The position numbers and the translations under genes were made by a program. The notes beneath the pieces are model-generated. The model did no database searches, had not been told where the DNA came from, and worked only from the letters and a program-made list of their open reading frames with translations. Source: Myxococcota bacterium (GTDB lineage Bacteria; Myxococcota_C; UBA6777). Taken from it: a DNA stretch of 41,767 nt. This document shows positions 7,839 to 41,195 of this stretch, piece by piece. The DNA is taken from assembly GCA_023150835.1 (NCBI GenBank), contig JAKLKB010000053.1:1-41767 (forward strand). Reading direction: 5' to 3'. Each line of letters opens with the position of its first letter. Positions within the stretch are counted from its first letter, which is position 1.

Positions 7839-7992
7839 CGCTTAACCTAACGCCTATGGGGTTTCACCCCACACCCCACAAGGGACCGATGGCCCCTTGA
7901 CCCCATGTTGGCGAAAAGATCAATGGTTTTCCAGACGGACGCCTCTGTCGCTTCAAGCAGTGCGAGCACGGGTTTTTTTCGCCAATCGCGTA
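7839..7992 (+). repeat. Hairpin-rich intergenic module, copy 1
   Basis: Begins CGCTTAAC, then a GGGGTTTCACCCC hairpin, an AAGGG...CCCCTT hairpin, GGCGAAAAGATC, and a tail with a T-run. The same order of blocks occurs at 30438-30589 (+) and 12637-12785 (-). It joins directly to a MITE-like element at 7993. Confidence 0.75.
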
Positions 7993-12636: not shown

Positions 12637-12785
12637 AGATGGGACTTACGCAGTTGCCAAAAAAAGCCGTGTTCGCGAACGCCCGAGCGACAGAGTCGTT
12701 GTTTTGAAAGACCTGTGATCTGTTCGCCAAATACGGGGTCAAGGGAGCCGCGCTCTATGGCGGGGCGTGGGGTGGAACCCCACTT
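12637..12785 (-). repeat. Hairpin-rich intergenic module, copy 2 (reversed)
   Basis: On the minus strand it reads GGGGTTCCACCCC, then CCCTTGACCCCGTATTTGGCG, then the T-run tail, matching copies at 7839 and 30438. Its right end (12739-12785) lies inside the reading frame of the next gene and supplies that gene's last residues and stop codon. Confidence 0.7.
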
Positions 12786-20672: not shown

Positions 20673-20677
20673 TACTG

Positions 20678-21030
20678 TGGAGGTGGCGGGAATCGAACCC
20701 GCGTCCGAAGACATTCCGCAGATGGGTCTACGTGTGTAGTCATGTCCTTTAATCCTCATCCTCGGGACGCCGACGTGACAGGCTGCCGTTGGACCAGCTT
20801 CGATTTTTCTCATGTCTGGGCCTCGGAGCCAAACCCAAACACCAGCCCGCTAATGTGACATCTCTCTTGGTTCGCAGACATCACCAAGAAAAACGCTAAC
20901 TGTTCTTAGGCAGCTAGAGCAAGTTCAACGTTGTCGTTGGCACTTGAAAGTTTTCGGGTTGTTACAGGGCCACCCGATCCCTGACACGCACCATGTGCCT
21001 CCTGATCCCCGTCGAAACCTGAACACCCCC
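20678..21030 (-). ncRNA. ssrA: Transfer-messenger RNA (tmRNA)
   Basis: 353 nt, single-chain type. The 5' end GGGGGTG (21030-21024) pairs with CACCTCC near the 3' end (20685-20679) as a 7-bp acceptor stem, with the G3-U70 wobble that alanyl-tRNA synthetase reads; the discriminator A is 20678 and CCA is not encoded. GTTTCGACGGGG near the 5' end and GGGTTCGATTCCC near the 3' end are the conserved D-like and T-arm elements. The tag frame runs 20941-20906 and encodes ANDNVELALAA followed by TAA, with the usual charged start and ALAA-type degradation end. tmRNA with SmpB rescues stalled ribosomes and tags the product for proteolysis. Confidence 0.95.
20906..20941 (-). other. tmRNA proteolysis-tag reading frame
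   Basis: Resume codon GCC at 20941-20939, then 10 codons and TAA, giving ANDNVELALAA (plus Ala from the charged tmRNA). The closely spaced hydrophobic ALAA end is the ClpXP/ClpAP degron. Confidence 0.9.
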
Positions 21031-30113: not shown

Positions 30114-30192
30114 ATACGATATCTGTGTGATGTGTGATCGAAGGGTCGTACGTAGACACCCGATTGTTGGGCAGCCACACCTGTCTGCCCCC
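30114..30192 (-). repeat. MITE-like element, partial copy D (reversed)
   Basis: ATACGATATCTG (30114-30125) is the right end of the element read on the other strand. The GGGCAGCC...GGCTGCCC-like core is present as TTGGGCAGCCACACCTGTCTG. The left end is missing. Confidence 0.65.
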
Positions 30193-30437: not shown

Positions 30438-30589
30438 GCGCTTAACAAGGCGCGTATGGGGCTTTGCCCCACGCCCCACAAGGGAACTGCGTCCCCTTGA
30501 CCCCGTATCGGCGAAGAGATCTCTGTTTTTCAAACAGACGACTCTCTCGCTTGAAACGACGCGAACACGGGGGTTTTCATCAAGTCCTA
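30438..30589 (+). repeat. Hairpin-rich intergenic module, copy 3
   Basis: GCGCTTAACAAGGCGCG (itself palindromic), GGGGCTTTGCCCC hairpin, AAGGGAACTGCGTCCCCTT hairpin, GGCGAAGAGATC, and a T-rich tail. The loops differ from copy 1 (TTTC versus CTTTG) while the stems are kept, and a change in one arm is matched in the other, which suggests the RNA or DNA fold is maintained. Confidence 0.7.
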
Positions 30590-30710: not shown

Positions 30711-30929
30711 TCACATTCGAAATTTTGCAAGATCCCAAAATAGTTTTCGGAATGTTGTCAGCATCTCAAAACATTCGTCGTCTTGTTGTATGTGTTCGCG
30801 ATCAACGTCCGCGAGCAAGCGAGCAAAAGAGTAAAGAGTGCTTGGACGTTGGCGTATGTTAGGATCGAGAAACGACATGACCCTTCGACTCACAGAGCAC
30901 TTCTCCGTTGACAAAAGATCTATGACGCA
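30711..30929 (-). pseudogene. Possible protein-kinase C-lobe remnant
   Basis: About 72 codons open between stops. The segment RRVMSFLDPNIRQRPSTLYS fits kinase subdomain XI ('cl..dP..RPs'), with a helix (FARLLADVDREH) after it, as in the end of Hanks-type kinases. No upstream catalytic lobe is present, no good start is seen, and the 5' side overlaps the promoter of the RNase H-like gene. It is best read as a decayed end of a kinase gene, with chance resemblance not excluded. Confidence 0.35.
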
Positions 30930-30936
30930 TTAGAAA
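30908..30936 (+). promoter_or_regulatory. Promoter of the RNase H-like / chaperone cassette
   Basis: TTGACA (30908-30913), 17-base spacer, TAGAAA (30931-30936). The -35 is perfect, the -10 matches at four of six. The expected start is near 30943, giving a leader of about 38 bases with AGAAGGA before ATG 30981. Confidence 0.55.
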
Positions 30937-30980
30937 AAAAGATGCTCTGTTTTTCTTTACACAAGAAGAAGGAACAGCCC

Positions 30981-31754
30981 ATGCAACCCATCAAATCGGA
31001 TCTGCTTCAAGATGTACACCTTTGGTTGGGAAGTTCGAAGATCGACGTAGGCTGTTGCATTGCGTGGCTAGAAACGCAATCTCAAAGCCTCTTGCGCTCC
31101 GATATGCCGACGCTTCAAGCACTGGGGCGCGGCGTGGTCGCTTGGCTAAAACGCGATCTCGACGCTGCCCGAAAAGCATGGCGCGAAGCGTGGACACTTG
31201 GCCTCCAAAAACCGCAACTCGCTTGCTTGCTCGGGCTTGTTGAGCCAACTCCACCAAGCACAGCCCATACCTACCCCACCTCCAACAACAGACACCTCTC
31301 TGGAACGAATCCCGCACCCAGTCTTATACAAGAGCGCCTTTGTGTGTACGTCGACGGTTCGTTTTGTCCACGAACCTCCGCTGGTGGGGTTTCCTGTGTT
31401 TATTGGTTGGATGGGCGGATGGTTGTTTTGTCCGAATCTTTGCCTGCACCCGTGTCATGCAGTAACTACGCAGAAATAAAAGCGATTTATCTCGCCATCT
31501 CGACTCCTGTGCTTGAACCTTACCCGTTGGCCATCTTCACAGACAGCCAAACCGCCTATATGGCCGTGTCACCCGATCATCCCTCACCCAAATTGCTCCC
31601 CGTGATGCAGCGCCTCGCAGAAGAAGTCAAAAAACTTCTTTTGCAAAGGAACGCCAAGATCGCATGGATCAAATCGAGGATCGGAAACGTTCTGCATAAC
31701 CAAGCCGATCTTTTCGCTGGACAGATATCAAAGTTCGCACAAACAACCTTTTAG
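30981..31754 (+). CDS. RNase H-fold protein with helical N-terminal domain
   Basis: 257 aa from the ATG at 30981 (AGAAGGA upstream). The C-terminal ~135 residues form an RNase H domain: YVDGSF (first catalytic Asp, about 125), SNYAEIKAIYLAI (Glu, about 164), IFTDSQTA (Asp, about 188) and NVLHNQADLFA (last Asp, about 242, with the flanking His/Asn). The four acidic positions are kept, so it could be active on RNA-DNA hybrids. The first ~100 residues are helical (SDLLQDVHLWLGSSKI, RDLDAARKAWREAW) and unlike the usual RNase HI hybrid-binding domain. It is 134 bases upstream of the GrpE-like gene on the same strand, so it may belong to the same cassette. Confidence 0.75.
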   Translation: MQPIKSDLLQDVHLWLGSSKIDVGCCIAWLETQSQSLLRSDMPTLQALGRGVVAWLKRDLDAARKAWREAWTLGLQKPQLACLLGLVEPTPPSTAHTYPTSNNRHLSGTNPAPSLIQERLCVYVDGSFCPRTSAGGVSCVYWLDGRMVVLSESLPAPVSCSNYAEIKAIYLAISTPVLEPYPLAIFTDSQTAYMAVSPDHPSPKLLPVMQRLAEEVKKLLLQRNAKIAWIKSRIGNVLHNQADLFAGQISKFAQTTF

Positions 31755-31888
31755 CTGACGAACCGCCTTCAGTCAAAATATACAGATTCTGCGGGCAAAA
31801 TCGAATATATTCGCGTCATCACTTCTCTGCTTTGACACGCACTTTCTATTCGGACGCTCGCTCTACCGCTCACATCAACAGGTGAATC

Positions 31889-33697
31889 ATGACTGACAGA
31901 AATCGAAACAACTTTCGCACAAACAACTCTTACGATGCTCCCACACGCCGAACGAACAACACCTCCCACCACACACGACACGAAGCTGAAGTGCGCAGGG
32001 GGTATCGGAGAGACAACGCCCCCTCCAACGCACCACACAACCCTCACAAGCTCTCGGACAATTATCATCGCCTGCTTGAGGAGGGAGGTTGGGACAAGTA
32101 CCACCGAATTCGATCCGATCTAAAGAACCACGGGGATAACCAACAACTGAGCAAATTAGATGAAGCTGCGACCGAAGAGTTAGTGAGAGCTTCGGATGCC
32201 GAGATATTGATCCTTGTGTACCAACTTCTTCATGGAGAAACATTTCACTCGGAAAACTTGAACTATCGCCCAGAGTGGTGGGAAGGGCCTTTGTTTGGCA
32301 TCATTTTTTCTTCTCAATTTTTTTCAAAACCGCCTTACTACGTCTTTATAAAAAAGATATGTTCTAAGGTAAAGTCTGATTTTGAATCAAACTTTGATAC
32401 TGTTCTTGGGTGCAAAAGACAAATCGTTACAGAACAACAAATTCCCCAAGAAATCACCGTTCAACAATGTAAGATTTTAAGCATTTGGATGTTTTTGAAA
32501 ATAAGGAAGAACTCGAATCAAGTTGATCAACGCTATGATTTGCGGCAGAAAACAGAAAACCTTTTCAACAAACTGTCAAGCTTGCCACCCCCTGATCTGC
32601 TTACCCGACATGAATCAGCCCAAAAAGATTGGGAAGATTTCTGCCACCAGTTTTTTGAATCGGAAAGACACCTCGCGACGAAACAAGAAGCATCCCGCAT
32701 CGCCCATCAAAAGGCTCTTGCAGAAAAGCAAGGCCAACAAATCCCAAAAATACACGCCGAGCTGCCTATTTCTTTGGATACGCAAAGCTCCGTTGATACG
32801 CAAAGCTCCGTTGATACGCAAAGCTCCGTTGATACGCGAAGCTCCTTGGATGCCGAAGAAAAACAATCGCCGCAAAACCATGCTCCAGCCACAAACCTCG
32901 GTGGTTTTGGACAAAAAGCAACGCACCAAGAAACAACAGAGCAAAAGCATCAAAAAATCTCAGATCATTCCTTAAACAAAGAGCACAAAAGCGAGCCCGC
33001 CCAAGACAGTGAATCCGCCCAAGACAGTGAATCCGCCCAAGACAGTGAATCCGCCCAAGACAGTGAATCTGCCCAAGGCAGCGAGTCCGCCCGAAAAGGC
33101 TTCAAAAACAAGCCATCAACCAAAAAACACAAGCAAATTGACCACCTTGCGTCGCTTTTAAGCCAAGCCATCGGTTCAAAACAAGACGTCTTGCAATTGC
33201 AAGCAAACGTCGAGCAGCTACAAGCAGAGATCCAAGAGTTGCGAGAGGAAAAGAAACAAATTCAAGGCGATTTACAGGAACTCGCAAGCCATGTAGATGG
33301 ACTCCGAGACTATTCGCAAACAAAAAAAAGCGATCATCAGATGCTTGAAAAACAATTCTCTGTAGCAAAGCAGGTCGCAAAGAACGAATTGTGCGAAGAT
33401 CTGCTCAAAAGCCTAAACGAAGTATTTGGACTGATCGAATCAGAAATTGGGCAAAAGAATTCGGATTGGCTGGATCTGTACGATGCTCTAAAAGATGCTC
33501 TACAAGAGGGCTTGCACATCGAGGCCACAGGTCGCGTGGGTGAAGAATTGATTGTGGGAGCAAAAGAAAATTTGCGTTCCAAAAATCAAAAGATCGCTGA
33601 AGGCCAAATTGTCGAAACCATCGGCTATGGTTGGAAAATGCGCAAAGAGGACGGAAACTACAAAATCCTCAGAGAAAAGCAAGTGAAAATACTGTAG
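31889..33697 (+). CDS. Oversized GrpE-like coiled-coil protein
   Basis: 602 aa. ATG with AGGTG close upstream. Residues 1-270 are a polar N-terminal part with an unassigned aromatic-containing helical region (YHRLLEEGGWDKYHRIRSDL, then GIIFSSQFFSKPPYYVFIKK). Residues 295-400 are a low-complexity linker with two 18-bp arrays. Residues 415-490 are a strong coiled coil (VLQLQANVEQLQAEIQELRE), then a four-helix-like part. The last 45 residues, with AEGQIVETIGYGWKM and then YKILREKQVKIL, match the beta-domain end of GrpE ('pg.V..v...GY......lR.a.V.V'). GrpE is normally about 200 aa and releases ADP from DnaK. Followed by an Hsp70-like gene, so it is probably that protein's exchange factor. Base composition is more A/T-rich than the flanks. 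Confidence 0.7.
   Translation: MTDRNRNNFRTNNSYDAPTRRTNNTSHHTRHEAEVRRGYRRDNAPSNAPHNPHKLSDNYHRLLEEGGWDKYHRIRSDLKNHGDNQQLSKLDEAATEELVRASDAEILILVYQLLHGETFHSENLNYRPEWWEGPLFGIIFSSQFFSKPPYYVFIKKICSKVKSDFESNFDTVLGCKRQIVTEQQIPQEITVQQCKILSIWMFLKIRKNSNQVDQRYDLRQKTENLFNKLSSLPPPDLLTRHESAQKDWEDFCHQFFESERHLATKQEASRIAHQKALAEKQGQQIPKIHAELPISLDTQSSVDTQSSVDTQSSVDTRSSLDAEEKQSPQNHAPATNLGGFGQKATHQETTEQKHQKISDHSLNKEHKSEPAQDSESAQDSESAQDSESAQDSESAQGSESARKGFKNKPSTKKHKQIDHLASLLSQAIGSKQDVLQLQANVEQLQAEIQELREEKKQIQGDLQELASHVDGLRDYSQTKKSDHQMLEKQFSVAKQVAKNELCEDLLKSLNEVFGLIESEIGQKNSDWLDLYDALKDALQEGLHIEATGRVGEELIVGAKENLRSKNQKIAEGQIVETIGYGWKMRKEDGNYKILREKQVKIL
32777..32848 (+). repeat. 18-bp coding tandem repeat, 4 copies
   Basis: Units encode DTQSSV (last one DTRSSL) in the linker of the GrpE-like protein; the first three are identical at the DNA level. 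Confidence 0.9.
32999..33088 (+). repeat. 18-bp coding tandem repeat, 5 copies
   Basis: Five units encoding AQDSES (last AQGSES) immediately before the coiled coil of the GrpE-like protein. Four are identical. Confidence 0.9.
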
Positions 33698-33753
33698 TGT
33701 CTTTGATTGTAAGACTTGACAAATCCCATCACGAGAAAGAATGGCAACGGGCG

Positions 33754-33884
33754 ATACGAAATCCGCCAAGTGTGTACACGGAAGGTGGTGGGGCAGCAAG
33801 GTGTGGCTGCCCAAGAACACGACCGCCTCAGCAAATCGTGCCGATGTTTCGATCACGCGCCTCTCGGATTTCGCCTAAGCCTTC
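33754..33884 (+). repeat. MITE-like element, copy F
   Basis: GATACGAAATCCG at 33754 and CTCGGATTTCGCC near 33872 are inverted ends. The core is GGGGCAGCAAGGTGTGGCTGCCC. It separates the GrpE-like and Hsp70-like genes and is the main content of that 247-bp gap. Confidence 0.7.
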
Positions 33885-33944
33885 TCTTTTGATGAGATTC
33901 GGATCGATTTTCTGAAATTTTCCAAAGAAAAAGGAGAGGCATCC

Positions 33945-36710
33945 ATGCAATTCAAGCCGGGTATGTATGTGGGAATCGACTTGGGAACAACCAATACGGT
34001 GTTGAGCCGCTGCCTTGTGGATCCACACGGCGATCTGCTCGCTCCGAAAACCATCCCCATCGCACAACAAACCGATGAACTGGGCAATATCGAAGAGAGA
34101 GAAAAACTGTGTTCATCGATCTTTGTGGACGAAGAAGGCCAGATGTTTCCAGGCGAATATGCACAAAAGCGCTTGATGAGCCGTCAAGACGCCCACGACG
34201 TCATCGCTTGGTGGAAAAATGATATCGGGCTTCGGAACAAAGACGGGGAGCTTCGCACTTGGGAGATCCATCACCGACAGATCGACGCAAAACAAGCAGC
34301 ATCTTGCGTCTTAAAGCATATCCGCAAGCAATTCGAAGAAAAGTACCCCGGAGTGCGAGTCGCTCCTGTGATCACGGTTCCAGCGTCTTTTCCCGAGCAG
34401 ATGAAGCAAGCAACGCTCGAAGCCGCCTATGATGCGGGATGGTTCGAAGAGAAACAAAGTCCGATTCTTCTTTACGAACCCATCGCTGCTTTGATTGCGT
34501 ATCTTTCATGGTACGAATCAGAACAGATGCCATTGCCTCCTGAGAAGCGTTCACCTGATCTGCAACAAGGCGGTCGTTTGTTGGTGTTTGACATCGGCGG
34601 AGGAACGGTCGACGTTACCATCGCACGCATCGAGTCTTTTTTATTTCAAGGCCAAACCAAGATGCGGGCTTATGTCGAAGATTACGCGCCGCATACACTA
34701 CTCGGCGGATATCGCTTTGACACGTTGTTTGCGGATGGGGCGTTGTGCTTTTTTTGTAAGGAAAACGGTATATCACCCGAAAAATTACCTCAAGAAGATC
34801 GAGATTCGCTCTATGGAGAACTCATCGAGTGGAGCGAAAAAGCCAAGATCAGCCTATCTAGCGGGCAATCCAGCGTTTCAAGAAGGCTCAACATTCCGCC
34901 CTCACTGCGCGGACCCGACGGAAAGCGGATCGCCACGCTCACGGTAGAGGCAGAAGATTACAAGCAATACATCTCGCCGTTGTTGGGTGGGACGCTTTCG
35001 CTAAACAGCGTTTTGCCGAAGAGCGAAACAAGACACATCGGAGAGGCCGAAACCATTGTTGAGCCGATCATCCGACTCATGCAGCGCCATCAATTGCGCC
35101 CAACGGATCTTGCGGGCTGCCTTTTGGTGGGAGGGATGACCTACCTCCCAGCTTTGCGTGAAAGGCTCGAGCATTTGTTCGAGTACAAAACACCGCTGAT
35201 CTGGGGTCAAATCGATCCCCTCAATGCTGTCGCCTACGGAGCGGCGATCCACAACGCCCAAGTCTTAAACGGCGTTTCGCCTCACATGGCAGCCATCCGC
35301 CCCGTTGAATTGTTGGTTCACCAGCAAAAAACACGCAGTACGGAGTGGGTTGCGGTGATCGAAAAAAACCAATTTCTGACGTATGGCGAAAGCCTTCACA
35401 AACAAAGCCCTACGCTGTTGTTCCCACGAGGCCAGCGCGAGATCAGCCTGAGATTTCGCTACGGCGGGATTCAACGTCGAGGATTAAAATTTTCCTATCC
35501 CGAAGAACTTACAAGCGAGCAAGAGCGGGCTTTTGTTTGCAAGCTGTCGGTTGACAGCCGGACACACATTTTGCGTATTCATGCGTATTTGTTAGACTTT
35601 CCAGACGTCAAGCTCGAAGTCGATGTTGACGAAACACCCCAACAAGCCGAAGAAGTCGCCGAACCTCTTGCGACGTTTCCACCTTCTCTTGCGACAAAAG
35701 TGCTTCCTCCTCGCCACTTGCCACCCGCCCAAGATCCCGAATTGAATCGACAAAGCAAAGATCTCGGCAAGATGCTTCGGTGGTTAAAAAGTGCCAAAGA
35801 CAGCCATATCGCTTCCACAAACAGAAAAGAGATCGAGAAATCTTCTCACGCAGGCATGATCGTGCCGGATATCGTTGCAGAACTAAAAAATAACGAAGAG
35901 CTTTCAATTGATGGGAAAACGCACATGGTGTTGTTGGTCGGGCGTCTTTATGAGCGCTATACCTACGGCAACGCAATCAACCCTCAAACATCAAAAGAAG
36001 TCGCCGACAAGATGAAAGGTGCCTTGCCGCAAGTGCTTTCGTTTTTGCAGGGGCTGTTGCTTGATCCTTACGCGCACGCCACGATGCGCCAAAACGCAGC
36101 GGTTGCGCTCGGGTTTGCTGGGCTATGGAATACTTCTTTAATCAAAACACCGAAACTCCTGAACATGATCGAGGGAGATTCATCCAAGTATTTTCTGCGA
36201 GGTTCCGGTCCTTCGATCAAAACCGAGATACTCCGAGCCATCGGTAGAACGCTGCATACACAAGAAGATTGGTATACTTTTTTGCGGTCGTGGTGCAAAC
36301 AAGGACAAGAACACGTGGCGCTGATCGAGTCGGCGTGTTGGGCGATCGCTCGGATCTTGACTCGGGAGCCGCTTCTTTTGAAACAAACCGACCTGCAACT
36401 CGTGGAGAAAACGTTGTCCGAGATCAAAAACAAAGCGTTGACCCACGATAACCCAAGTGCTCGGATCATGGGTTGGAACGCAGTCGCTCTGTTCAGTATG
36501 ACCCACGACATCGGATTGGAACGCCCGATCTACGAACAAAGCGCACAAGCTTTGTTGGATTGGCTGTTTGAGCTCGCAAACAAGATCAAAAACTCCCCGA
36601 AAACTTCGTCGATTTGGCGCAACGTGGATTTCTTTTTGCGGGCAGCGGCGGGGCAAAAAATGGCGGAAGAGATGGCACACGAGCTAGAAAGCCTTCCTGT
36701 CTTGCGTTAG
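33945..36710 (+). CDS. Hsp70-like ATPase with non-canonical helical C-terminus
   Basis: 921 aa, about 280 longer than DnaK. ATG with AAGGAGAGG upstream. The nucleotide-binding domain is complete: phosphate-1 GIDLGTTNT (10-18), connect-1 VITVPASFPEQMKQATLEAA, phosphate-2 FDIGGGTVDV (about 215-224), and adenosine motif LLVGGMTYLPALRERL (about 392-407). A short degenerate beta region (about 470-570) replaces the DnaK substrate-binding beta-sandwich; there is no lid with EEVD-like end. Residues 600-921 are helical and HEAT-like (MRQNAAVALGFAGLWNTSLI, then ESACWAIARILTR). Probably a specialised chaperone or scaffold whose client site is the helical-repeat domain. It is next to a GrpE-like gene, without dnaJ. 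It ends 15 bases from a convergent gene. Confidence 0.8.
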   Translation: MQFKPGMYVGIDLGTTNTVLSRCLVDPHGDLLAPKTIPIAQQTDELGNIEEREKLCSSIFVDEEGQMFPGEYAQKRLMSRQDAHDVIAWWKNDIGLRNKDGELRTWEIHHRQIDAKQAASCVLKHIRKQFEEKYPGVRVAPVITVPASFPEQMKQATLEAAYDAGWFEEKQSPILLYEPIAALIAYLSWYESEQMPLPPEKRSPDLQQGGRLLVFDIGGGTVDVTIARIESFLFQGQTKMRAYVEDYAPHTLLGGYRFDTLFADGALCFFCKENGISPEKLPQEDRDSLYGELIEWSEKAKISLSSGQSSVSRRLNIPPSLRGPDGKRIATLTVEAEDYKQYISPLLGGTLSLNSVLPKSETRHIGEAETIVEPIIRLMQRHQLRPTDLAGCLLVGGMTYLPALRERLEHLFEYKTPLIWGQIDPLNAVAYGAAIHNAQVLNGVSPHMAAIRPVELLVHQQKTRSTEWVAVIEKNQFLTYGESLHKQSPTLLFPRGQREISLRFRYGGIQRRGLKFSYPEELTSEQERAFVCKLSVDSRTHILRIHAYLLDFPDVKLEVDVDETPQQAEEVAEPLATFPPSLATKVLPPRHLPPAQDPELNRQSKDLGKMLRWLKSAKDSHIASTNRKEIEKSSHAGMIVPDIVAELKNNEELSIDGKTHMVLLVGRLYERYTYGNAINPQTSKEVADKMKGALPQVLSFLQGLLLDPYAHATMRQNAAVALGFAGLWNTSLIKTPKLLNMIEGDSSKYFLRGSGPSIKTEILRAIGRTLHTQEDWYTFLRSWCKQGQEHVALIESACWAIARILTREPLLLKQTDLQLVEKTLSEIKNKALTHDNPSARIMGWNAVALFSMTHDIGLERPIYEQSAQALLDWLFELANKIKNSPKTSSIWRNVDFFLRAAAGQKMAEEMAHELESLPVLR

Positions 36711-36725
36711 AGCAACACAAAAAGC

Positions 36726-39602
36726 CTATCGACGAGGGTTTCGCAGGAAGATCAGCAGCACGAACATCCAAAGCAGCATCAGCGAAGCATCCGAGGAGGC
36801 CCCTTCACAACCGCATCCGCCGCTGGTTGCGCCGTCGCCTGCTTTTTCAGGGTCATCCACCGCCGTGCCTTTTTCTACGGCCTGTTCGCCTGTTGTGCTG
36901 TCTGTTGTCTGTTCGGCTGCGGTTTCCCCCATCGTCTCGGAAGGTTCAACGCTGCTTTCGGTGCTTCCGTCCACAGCACCCTCGGCGCTGCCTTCGGATG
37001 GGGACTCGGTGACGCCTTCGGGTGTGGACTCGGTCGGAGGTTGGGGATCTTTGCACGATCTGCTGATCGAGTCGCAGGACTGACCAAGCGGACAAGCACA
37101 GTCGACGGGACAAGTCGCGCAGTTCTCGTCTTTTGCCGCATCACAGGCTCCATCCCCGCATGAATCGATCGCAACGCATTGTTTTTGTTTGCAAGACTGG
37201 CCCGCAGGACAGCCACAGTCCGCAACGCATGCCTCGCAATCTTCGCCCTGTGCCGCTTCGCACACCCCGTTGCCACAAGCTGTCGCCGCAACACAGGCGT
37301 TGTTTTGGCACTGTTTCCCCGCTGCACAGCTACAATCTGTTGCGCAAGATCCGCAGTTTTCGCCGCTTGCTGCATCACAAGTCCCATTTCCACAAGTGGT
37401 CAACGCAACACAAGCATTGTTTTGGCAAGCCTGACCCGTCGCACAGGCACAGTCGGCTGCGCAAGATCCGCAGTTTTCGTTGCGTGCAGCTTCACATACA
37501 CCGTTTCCACACGGGTCGACTGCGACACAGCGATCATTGGAACAAGCCTGACCCGCAGGGCAGCCACAATCCGCCGCGCAAGAATCGCAGTTTTCGCCTT
37601 GTGCGGCATTGCACACCCCATCCCCACAGGTGGTCAGAGCCACACAAGCGTTGTTGCGACAAGCCAGACCCGTTGCACAGGCACAGTCTGCGGCGCAAGT
37701 TCCGCAGTTTTCGCCAAGAGCCGCTTCGCACACACCGTTTCCACAAGGGTTGCTGACTTGACAACGATCTTGTTGACATTGTTGTCCAACAGGGCAAGTG
37801 CAATCTGCTGTGCAGGTTCCGCAGTTTTCACCTTGTGCAGGATTGCAGAGGCCGTCTCCACAGTTCGGCGTGGCGATCTGACAAGCGTTGTTCTGACAGC
37901 GTTGTCCCGTCGGACAAACACAATCCGCTGCGCAAGATCCGCAATCTTCACCACGAGCAGCCTCACACGTCCCGTTGCCGCAAGTCGAGATCACTGCGCA
38001 TGTTCCGTTGTTTTGGCATTGTTGGCCCGACGGGCAAGCACAGTCTGCTGGACAGCTTGCGCAGTTCTCTCCGCCCGCTGCATCGCACGTCCCGTTGCCA
38101 CATGTCGAAGGCGGCGCTGCACAAGCGTTGTTCACGCAATTTTGACCTGTCGGACAGCGGCAATCCGTCGGACAAGTCGCGCAATTTTCCCCCGCTCCAG
38201 CATCACAAGTCCCATTGCCACATGCGCTAAGTGCCGTACATACGTTGTTTTGGCATCGTTGACCGACCGCGCAGACGCAATCCGACGGACAGCTTGTGCA
38301 GTTTTCACCCAGCGAGCTTTCGCAAGTCCCGTTGCCGCAACGCTGAACGGCGACACAAGTGTTGTTTTGGCACGATTGCCCCGAAGGACACGCACAATCC
38401 GAAGCGCAGCTTGTGCAGTTCTCACCACTTGCGGCATCGCAAGTCCCGTTGCCACACGTCGAGATCGCCGTACACGCCCCTGCCGTCGAACAAGACTGCC
38501 CCGTTGGACAGATACAATCTGCCGGACACGTCGAACAATTTTCACTGCGCGCAGCCTCGCAAACACCGTTTCCGCAAGGATTCACGACGCGACAAGCGAG
38601 GCGATCACAGATCGCTCCGCTTGGGCAGCGACAATCTGACGGACAGGTCGAGCAGTTCTCAAGACTTGCAGCTTCGCACACACCGTTTCCGCAAGTCGAG
38701 ATCGCCTTACATTGGCCGTTTTCGCATTGCTGGCCGGGCGCACAAGCACAATCCAACGCACAGGAATTGCAGTTTTCACCGTTGGCCGCTTCACAAGTCC
38801 CGTTGCCGCAAGTGTTGTTGGCGCGGCAAAACCCGCTGCGGCAGATCTCACCGTTGGGGCATTTACAGTCTTTCGGACAGCTTTGGCAGTTTTCGTTGGC
38901 CGCCGGATCGCAAGTCCCATCCCCACAAGAAGCCAACGCAGTACACGTCCCATTCGCCCCACAGGTCCGTCCGGGTGGACAACGACAATCTCTTGCACAA
39001 GTGCTGCAATCTTCTCCGCGATTGTTTTCACAAACACCGTTTCCACAAGTCGCCATCATCCGACAAGCATTGTTTTGACATTGCTGGCCCGCAGGGCAAG
39101 GGCAATCCGCTGCGCACGTCCCGCAGTTTTCGCCGATATCGCAGATGTTGTTTCCGCATTGGCCGGGCGACACACAAGCATTGTTTTGACATTGCTGTCC
39201 CGCAGGGCAAGCACAATCCGCCGCGCATGTCCCGCAGTTTTCTCCTTGCGCAGCGTCGCAAGTGCCGTTGCCGCATTGCGTGAGAGCAACACAAGCATTG
39301 TTCTGACAGACTTGGCCGGCTACGCACTTACAATCTCGTCCACAAGTTCCGCAGTTTTCGCCTATCGCGGCATTGCACACACCATCACCGCAAGGATTGG
39401 CCCCACGACATTGATTGCCAACACACTGCTGACCTGCGGGGCAGCCACAATCTGCGGGGCAGTTGGCACAATGTTCTGTCGGTTCGCATGTCCCGTCTCC
39501 GCAAACCGCCCATGCTGCCGAAGGAAACCACACCATCGCCATCAAGATCCACCCGACGGCAAAAGAAAAAACTCGAAAAGAAAGGCGCACACAAGGCAAC
39601 AT
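36726..39602 (-). CDS. Surface protein of 21 eight-cysteine repeats with MYXO-CTERM-like tail
   Basis: 958 aa. ATG 39602 has AAAGGAG eight bases upstream and gives a signal peptide (LSFRVFSFAVGWILMAMVW, cut near AAWA). Then 21 tandem repeats of about 39 residues, each with eight Cys in the pattern CGxGxC, ENC, C, DC, C, C, C (for example CGNGTCDAA then GENCGTC), some 168 Cys in all. An acidic Thr/Ser/Glu linker (about 110 residues) follows, then GGCGCEGASS, a hydrophobic helix (LMLLWMFVLLIFL) and RNPRR, which fits the MYXO-CTERM sorting signal, whose Cys is cut and anchored by a rhombosortase-like enzyme. Repeats are diverged in DNA, so the array is old. Four disulfides per repeat would make a stiff rod exposed on the cell surface. 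Function unknown. Confidence 0.85.
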   Translation of the reverse strand: MLPCVRLSFRVFSFAVGWILMAMVWFPSAAWAVCGDGTCEPTEHCANCPADCGCPAGQQCVGNQCRGANPCGDGVCNAAIGENCGTCGRDCKCVAGQVCQNNACVALTQCGNGTCDAAQGENCGTCAADCACPAGQQCQNNACVSPGQCGNNICDIGENCGTCAADCPCPAGQQCQNNACRMMATCGNGVCENNRGEDCSTCARDCRCPPGRTCGANGTCTALASCGDGTCDPAANENCQSCPKDCKCPNGEICRSGFCRANNTCGNGTCEAANGENCNSCALDCACAPGQQCENGQCKAISTCGNGVCEAASLENCSTCPSDCRCPSGAICDRLACRVVNPCGNGVCEAARSENCSTCPADCICPTGQSCSTAGACTAISTCGNGTCDAASGENCTSCASDCACPSGQSCQNNTCVAVQRCGNGTCESSLGENCTSCPSDCVCAVGQRCQNNVCTALSACGNGTCDAGAGENCATCPTDCRCPTGQNCVNNACAAPPSTCGNGTCDAAGGENCASCPADCACPSGQQCQNNGTCAVISTCGNGTCEAARGEDCGSCAADCVCPTGQRCQNNACQIATPNCGDGLCNPAQGENCGTCTADCTCPVGQQCQQDRCQVSNPCGNGVCEAALGENCGTCAADCACATGLACRNNACVALTTCGDGVCNAAQGENCDSCAADCGCPAGQACSNDRCVAVDPCGNGVCEAARNENCGSCAADCACATGQACQNNACVALTTCGNGTCDAASGENCGSCATDCSCAAGKQCQNNACVAATACGNGVCEAAQGEDCEACVADCGCPAGQSCKQKQCVAIDSCGDGACDAAKDENCATCPVDCACPLGQSCDSISRSCKDPQPPTESTPEGVTESPSEGSAEGAVDGSTESSVEPSETMGETAAEQTTDSTTGEQAVEKGTAVDDPEKAGDGATSGGCGCEGASSDASLMLLWMFVLLIFLRNPRR

Positions 39603-39621
39603 CTTGATCACTCCTTTTGTC

Positions 39622-39810
39622 CTAGCAAATCGATGTTTTGCAAGGTAGATATCCTCTGCGAAACAGTTGTCGTGCAGCCTTCGCAAAGGTCTCAAATTCA
39701 GACAAAAGGATCTCTGGCAAACCCGACTCCACGCCGATGTCCAGCTTTTTCCTTCCATTCGTCACTTTAACGACGAAGGATGCGTCGGTCCCGTCGAGCA
39801 TCTCTTGCAA
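39622..39810 (-). CDS. Small 62-aa ORF in frame behind the CorA-like gene
   Basis: TTG 39810 (or ATG 39801) to a stop at 39622. It encodes a basic and acidic mix (VVKVTNGRKKLDIGVESGLP, then SEFETFAKAARQLFRRGYLP) that looks like a real protein. It is in the same frame as the CorA-like gene, just after that gene's TAA, and no ribosome binding site is clear. It could be a separate small gene, a readthrough extension, or the old end of the CorA-like gene after a nonsense change. I know no family match. Confidence 0.35.
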   Translation of the reverse strand: MQEMLDGTDASFVVKVTNGRKKLDIGVESGLPEILLSEFETFAKAARQLFRRGYLPCKTSIC

Positions 39811-40803: not shown

Positions 40804-41195
40804 ATACGAGATCCGCCTATTGTATGATCGTAAAAATGTAGGGGCAGCCGTCCGTGAAGTACGTGAAAAAGTAGGGGCAGACAGGTGTGGCTGCCCAATC
40901 ACAGGGCGTTTACAACAAACCGCATCGACGCTTATGGGTACGCTTTTGACGGATATGGTAGGAATGATGATCGCAAACGAATGGCATGAGTTGGTCCAAG
41001 TGACAGGTGTGGCTGCCCAATCACAGGGCGTTTACAACAAACCGCATCGACGCTTATGGATACGCTTTTGACGGATATTGTAGGAAGGATGATCGCAAAC
41101 GAATGGCATGAGTGGGTCCAAGTGCCCCCTGTGGCCGCCCAAGAACAGGGCGTCTACGCACTATCCTACGGGAACACATCACACGGATATCGTAT
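40804..41195 (+). repeat. MITE-like composite element, copy G
   Basis: Begins ATACGAGATCCG (40804-40815) and ends CGGATATCGTAT (41184-41195). Inner ends (GACGGATATGG near 40947, GACGGATATTG near 41070) show that it is built of three nested units sharing a core of the type GGTGTGGCTGCCCAATCACA. No gene in the 609-bp gap 40570-41178. Confidence 0.75.
40880..41123 (+). repeat. 122-bp tandem duplication inside copy G
   Basis: Block starting GACAGGTGTGGCTGCCCAAT at 40880 is repeated at 41002 with only a handful of differences. The period of 122 bp and the high identity point to a recent event. Confidence 0.85.

Follow-up and report, generated by a model that had tools for sequence, protein, structure and literature searches.

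An orphan Hsp70 variant with a HEAT-like tail and a possible private exchange factor in one genus of Myxococcota

Bacteria with complex life cycles commonly encode accessory Hsp70s (PMC8265645, PMC11019930), and Myxococcus xanthus provides a precedent in DnaK2/SglK (MXAN_6671), which carries a locus tag neighbouring that of a GrpE paralogue, MXAN_6672 (PMC8265645, PMC11019930). SglK belongs to the canonical DnaKs (PRK00290) and can rescue an E. coli dnaK mutant; the Hsp70 described here, ORF 3, is far more divergent. HSP70 is also found beside GrpE in the GAP1-N2 GTPase conflict systems (PMC7159879), although the cassette studied here lacks a GTPase, FNIII or J-domain component. In DnaK, the K55-E267 and R56-E264 pairs slow ADP release, and R167, Q378 and the linker touch the J-domain (PMC8215388). 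Both the GrpE-signature loop and the salt bridges of the cleft are associated with GrpE dependence, and HscA and HscC, which have no signature loop, are not expected to bind GrpE (PMC8215388). A further comparison was offered by 80 loci in many phyla that encode DUF3731-type Hsp70s (PF12531, 'DNA-K related protein') or related Hsp70s; usually a ~610-aa Hsp70 comes first, and the next, of ~930 aa, carries DUF3731 at its C-terminus. A literature search found no paper naming DUF3731 or DUF2760.

We analysed a window of 41,767 nucleotides, which is one whole contig of a Myxococcota genome of 7.56 Mb in 239 contigs. The phylum was sampled by five genomes, all of one family, and the four others, one of them from the same genus, formed the comparison set. 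Three ORFs lie on the forward strand of the window. ORF 1 (30942-31754, 270 aa) encodes an RNase H domain protein, for which the start at 30981, with AAGAAGGAA upstream, is better than that at 30942 and gives 257 aa. ORF 2 (31889-33697) encodes a protein of 602 aa, and ORF 3 (33945-36710) the divergent Hsp70 of 921 aa. The codon-use score was highest in its own frame for each ORF and, with the ORF list, confirmed the three same-direction genes, including the 602-aa and 921-aa products, proposed in a sequence-only reading of this DNA. The same reading had described the 602-aa gene as A/T-richer than its flanks, in agreement with a GC content of 45% compared to 55% in the window. All three ORFs are below the GC content of the genome, and the cassette also shows weak codon adaptation. 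In contrast, the strong promoter proposed ahead of ORF 1 was not recovered: a perfect TTGACA is present at 30909, but the -10 element is TAGAAA, and a promoter scan returned no good promoter on the forward strand.

The ORFs are separated by 134 nt (ORF 1 to ORF 2) and 247 nt (ORF 2 to ORF 3). A REP-like palindromic hairpin, GGCAGACAGGTGTGGCTGCCC, which has 210 copies in this genome, 20 in the same-genus genome and none in the other three of the phylum, was located by repeat search upstream of ORF 1 (30164..30191, core 30169-30189, reverse strand) and within the gap between ORF 2 and ORF 3 (33790..33817, core 33792-33812, forward strand), the next copy in the window being at 40876-40896. The idea that dispersed repeats bound the cassette is consequently right for the upstream copy and wrong for the other side, where one copy is internal and the next is distant. 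Because a REP hairpin occupies the 247-nt gap, co-transcription of ORF 2 and ORF 3 is doubtful. A variant of the repeat, GGCAGCCCCCTGTGGCTGCCC, has four copies between 8029 and 20556 of the window, and a dispersed repeat of ~122 nt at 30457-30577 recurs at 7857-7980 and 12659-12783 and has a single copy in the same-genus genome. Adjoining the cassette is a galE-MOSC pair that is 93% identical to the same-genus genome; the match stops at ~29,860, just before the cassette. Given this synteny and the genus-specific REP repeat on the contig, an assembly or binning artefact was ruled out. Elsewhere in the window, a tmRNA gene is located at 20675-21030 (reverse strand), and 36726-39758 (reverse strand) encodes a 1010-aa Cys-rich repeat protein (CGNGTCDAA...GENC) that ends in a MYXO-CTERM-like tail and has no Pfam match.

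ORF 3 belongs to the Hsp70 family, although it has diverged strongly. It matched Pfam PF00012 (HSP70) with E 1e-27, as expected from its earlier description as a 921-aa Hsp70-like ATPase, and the catalytic elements GIDLGTTN, E178, D216 and GGGT are all kept. An AlphaFold2 model computed with 52 aligned relatives had a mean pLDDT of 69, with most of the nucleotide-binding domain (NBD) at 80-90. Comparison of the model with DnaK (Foldseek was also run) gave Z 32.7 with 471 residues aligned over 5-594, indicating that ORF 3 has the beta-sandwich as well as the ATPase domain. The ATPase domain (residues 5-441) alone reached a structure Z of about 30. The SBD-beta-like sandwich extends to ~560, with eight strands at 456-560 where pLDDT is 50-65, and the DnaK alignment runs to 560-594. 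Overall identity to DnaK is ~25%.

Beyond SBD-beta, residues 598-915 are predicted to be helical, with no recognisable SBD-alpha lid, and match the Pfam HEAT_EZ family (E 1e-5), suggesting from the model that a HEAT-like helical tail stands in place of the Hsp70 lid. The tail also bears a remote similarity to DUF3731. The Pfam match was E 0.06 and 13.6 bits, where the cut-off is 25, and hhalign placed the tail first of 292 against the DUF3731 profile, with a score of 29.2 (controls 15.2 ± 2.9, maximum 24.3). No match to the tail was found in plasmids, and none below E 0.02 in 386 genomes (mostly one per family). Searches by peptide patterns found no close homologue of ORF 3 in genome contigs or viral contigs.

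To relate ORF 3 to the mechanism described for DnaK, its NBD was aligned with DnaKs from this genome and from others, and E. coli numbering was assigned by counting from conserved motifs. The GrpE-signature loop (DnaK 290-295) is present at full length in ORF 3, with low residue identity, whereas it is shortened in the DUF3731 Hsp70s. The cleft glutamates are kept (KEAAEKAK is replaced by IEWSEKAK, E264/E267-type), and the alignment is ambiguous at the equivalents of K55 and R56. The J-domain contacts, on the other hand, are lost: R167 is replaced by Ile and Q378 by His, and a VLLLD-type linker is not recognisable. Since the GrpE-type features are kept and the J-domain contacts are lost, ORF 3 is most likely an exchange-factor-dependent, J-independent Hsp70. 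The retained loop and glutamates would fit an exchange factor, and ORF 2 could possibly be that factor.

In the NBD tree, DUF3731 proteins and their partners formed a clade with 100/100 support that does not contain ORF 3, which is a long lone branch attaching just outside it. Constraining the ORF 3 NBD with the canonical DnaKs alone was not rejected (AU p 0.10). A join between the ORF 3 NBD and a divergent 838-aa Hsp70 of another genome was dropped, the program having flagged it as a long-branch join. The deep lone branch, the HEAT-like tail, the kept loop and the lost J-domain contacts lend support to the earlier idea that the Hsp70 is specialised and runs an ATPase cycle of its own. Other Hsp70 arrangements were seen in the surveyed genomes. 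Two other genomes of the family (L051 6322-10121; L052 172-4964) carry tandem Hsp70 genes, the first of which (751 and 723 aa) has a C-terminal vWA-like domain recognised by eye (DCSAS/DTSAS), and in an unrelated genome (L050 460-4715) an 838-aa Hsp70-like protein is encoded beside a protein-kinase/AAA+ fusion.

The 602-aa product of ORF 2 had been said to end in a GrpE-type beta-domain, and a profile match of its C-terminus to GrpE had been named as the check on that claim; the check was run and failed. ORF 2 has no GrpE match in Pfam or NCBIfam, even at E 10, and a PF01025 search of the whole genome recovered four real GrpEs with ORF 2 not among the matches. A GrpE HMM built here scored the C-terminus at 2.4 bits, and shuffled sequences reached up to 3.8. 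In hhalign, the last 122 residues scored 20.5 against a GrpE profile and ranked 12 of 1,166 C-termini, below the four true GrpEs and seven others (some of them duplicates); the score was equalled or beaten by 7 of 1,161 other protein ends. The C-terminus nonetheless weakly resembles the last two GrpE strands: the last 35 residues alone align with GrpE, and because both C-termini are in register, ORF 2 is possibly a degenerate GrpE. A single-sequence fold of residues 411-602 (pLDDT 54) predicted a coil, helices and a C-terminal strand pair, and this model had no match in the PDB. The remainder of the protein comprises a probably globular N-terminal part (~residues 45-265) of no known family, without matches in plasmids or Pfam, a low-complexity linker holding two arrays of 18-nt tandem repeats, and a coiled coil at ~428-478 followed by the short C-terminal region.

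Oversized and private GrpEs do occur in this lineage, since the same genome encodes on contig C13 a genuine GrpE of 551 aa whose N-terminus is long and of low complexity (L056 6732-8387, reverse strand) and on contig C86 a grpE directly before dnaK. The gene of the 551-aa GrpE sits between FHA-like and sigma-factor-like genes.

ORF 1 matched Pfam PF00075 (RNase_H) with E 4.4e-11 over residues 131-261, nearly the full model, and a PHROG RNase H with E 3.5e-9. The four acidic residues can be read as D (YVDGS), E (YAEIK), D (FTDSQ) and D (NQADL), in keeping with the RNase H fold assigned earlier, and an Arg occupies the position of the RNase HI active-site His. The RNase H domain is C-terminal; the N-terminal 100 residues are TPR-like by eye and have no TPR match in Pfam. 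ORF 1 matched RNase H in general and nothing narrower, with no near relative in 386 genomes, plasmids, phages or viral contigs; the best outside matches were a 30% fragment in one genome (E 9e-4) and a weak phage match.

None of the three ORFs has a homologue at useful significance in the four other genomes of the phylum, and neither the trio nor the pair of ORF 2 and ORF 3 was found in any genome searched. The 80 DUF3731-type loci had no relatives of ORF 1 or ORF 2 (RNase H, GrpE-like) beside them, viral contigs had no relatives of ORFs 1-3 in scans that detect near relatives only, and the best PADLOC match (E 0.034, 10.8 bits) was not meaningful. With no recurring neighbourhood homologous to the cassette, and with the wide gaps and the REP between ORF 2 and ORF 3, the proposed link to nucleic acid processing or defence is unsupported, as is a role of the RNase H alongside ORF 2 and ORF 3. 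Horizontal acquisition, also suggested earlier, fits the absence from the other phylum genomes, the low GC and the weak codon adaptation, but rapid divergence or loss fits as well. Rather than an established new machine, the three genes look like lineage-specific extras of a single genus that is poorly sampled.

We tentatively favour the explanation that ORF 3 is a lineage-specific, diverged Hsp70 with GrpE-type exchange and no J protein, the exchange factor being ORF 2 or an ordinary GrpE. The fold, catalytic residues and full loop of ORF 3, the rank of its tail, the in-register C-terminus of ORF 2 and the 551-aa GrpE and grpE-dnaK pair of the genome count in favour; the missing significant GrpE profile match and poor model of ORF 2, the 247 nt with its REP, the ambiguous K55/R56 positions and the lack of any homologous pair count against. 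A serious contender, though also short of probable, is that the cassette is a chance grouping, within a variable region, of three unrelated accessory genes, namely a stand-alone Hsp70, a coiled-coil scaffold or adaptor instead of a GrpE, and an independent RNase H. Chance would account for three genes without homologues in the phylum set, for the same-genus synteny that ends just before them, for the hairpin and wide gaps between them, for the failed GrpE tests and for the general nature of the RNase H match. It accounts less well for their common strand and low GC, or for a GrpE-like C-terminal register in ORF 2 next to a GrpE-competent ATPase domain in ORF 3.

Another view is that ORF 3 is a divergent DUF3731-type Hsp70 whose usual partner was lost, which we consider unlikely. 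ORF 3 shares with that group its length (~920 aa) and layout, the NBD motif VPASF and a tail that, in the right place, resembles DUF3731 above all 291 controls, as well as the weak Pfam match; however, its NBD falls outside the clade, it keeps the loop that the group lacks, the tail match is under the Pfam cut-off, and no Hsp70 partner gene adjoins it. Still less credible is a J-independent, HEAT-tailed Hsp70 driven by a dedicated 602-aa GrpE relative and acting on RNase H-bound or RNA-DNA hybrid clients, as a three-gene machine of one uncultured genus. The least probable reading is a chaperone-based anti-phage or conflict module with an RNase H effector: HSP70 and GrpE genes occur in ~14% of GAP1-N2 GTPase conflict neighbourhoods (PMC7159879) and the region is patchy and A/T-rich, but no GTPase-plus-vWA, tubulin or DnaJ-type gene adjoins the cassette, and the defence and neighbourhood searches, and the viral-contig scans for near relatives, were negative.

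Returning to the favoured diverged Hsp70, we infer its whole cycle, and the pairing of ORF 2 with ORF 3, from the observed domains, residues and gene order. The ATPase domain would bind ATP as DnaK does, SBD-beta would bind short peptide segments, and the HEAT-like tail, replacing the lid, may provide client or partner binding. ORF 3 appears to keep the features that make ADP release in DnaK slow and GrpE-responsive, but the principal contacts for a J-domain are gone. Its cycle therefore most likely relies on a GrpE-type exchange factor and on no J protein. Exchange could be carried out by ORF 2, as a degenerate GrpE that a long disordered linker joins to an N-terminal domain of no known family, or by one of the genome's four ordinary GrpEs; the RNase H gene may be no more than a neighbour. 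We conclude that the locus encodes an orphan variant of Hsp70, possibly served by an exchange factor of its own.

Hsp70s encoded next to an exchange factor have been described before; less usual is the combination of a HEAT-like tail with a GrpE-competent, J-uncoupled ATPase domain. If the pairing is true, ORF 3 would still depend on an exchange factor but have given up J-domain coupling. HscA and HscC show the reverse, with J proteins kept and GrpE dropped (PMC8215388), and ORF 3 would then offer a test of which half of the Hsp70 cycle can be dispensed with. The widespread DUF3731 Hsp70 pairs also deserve notice in the light of this finding.
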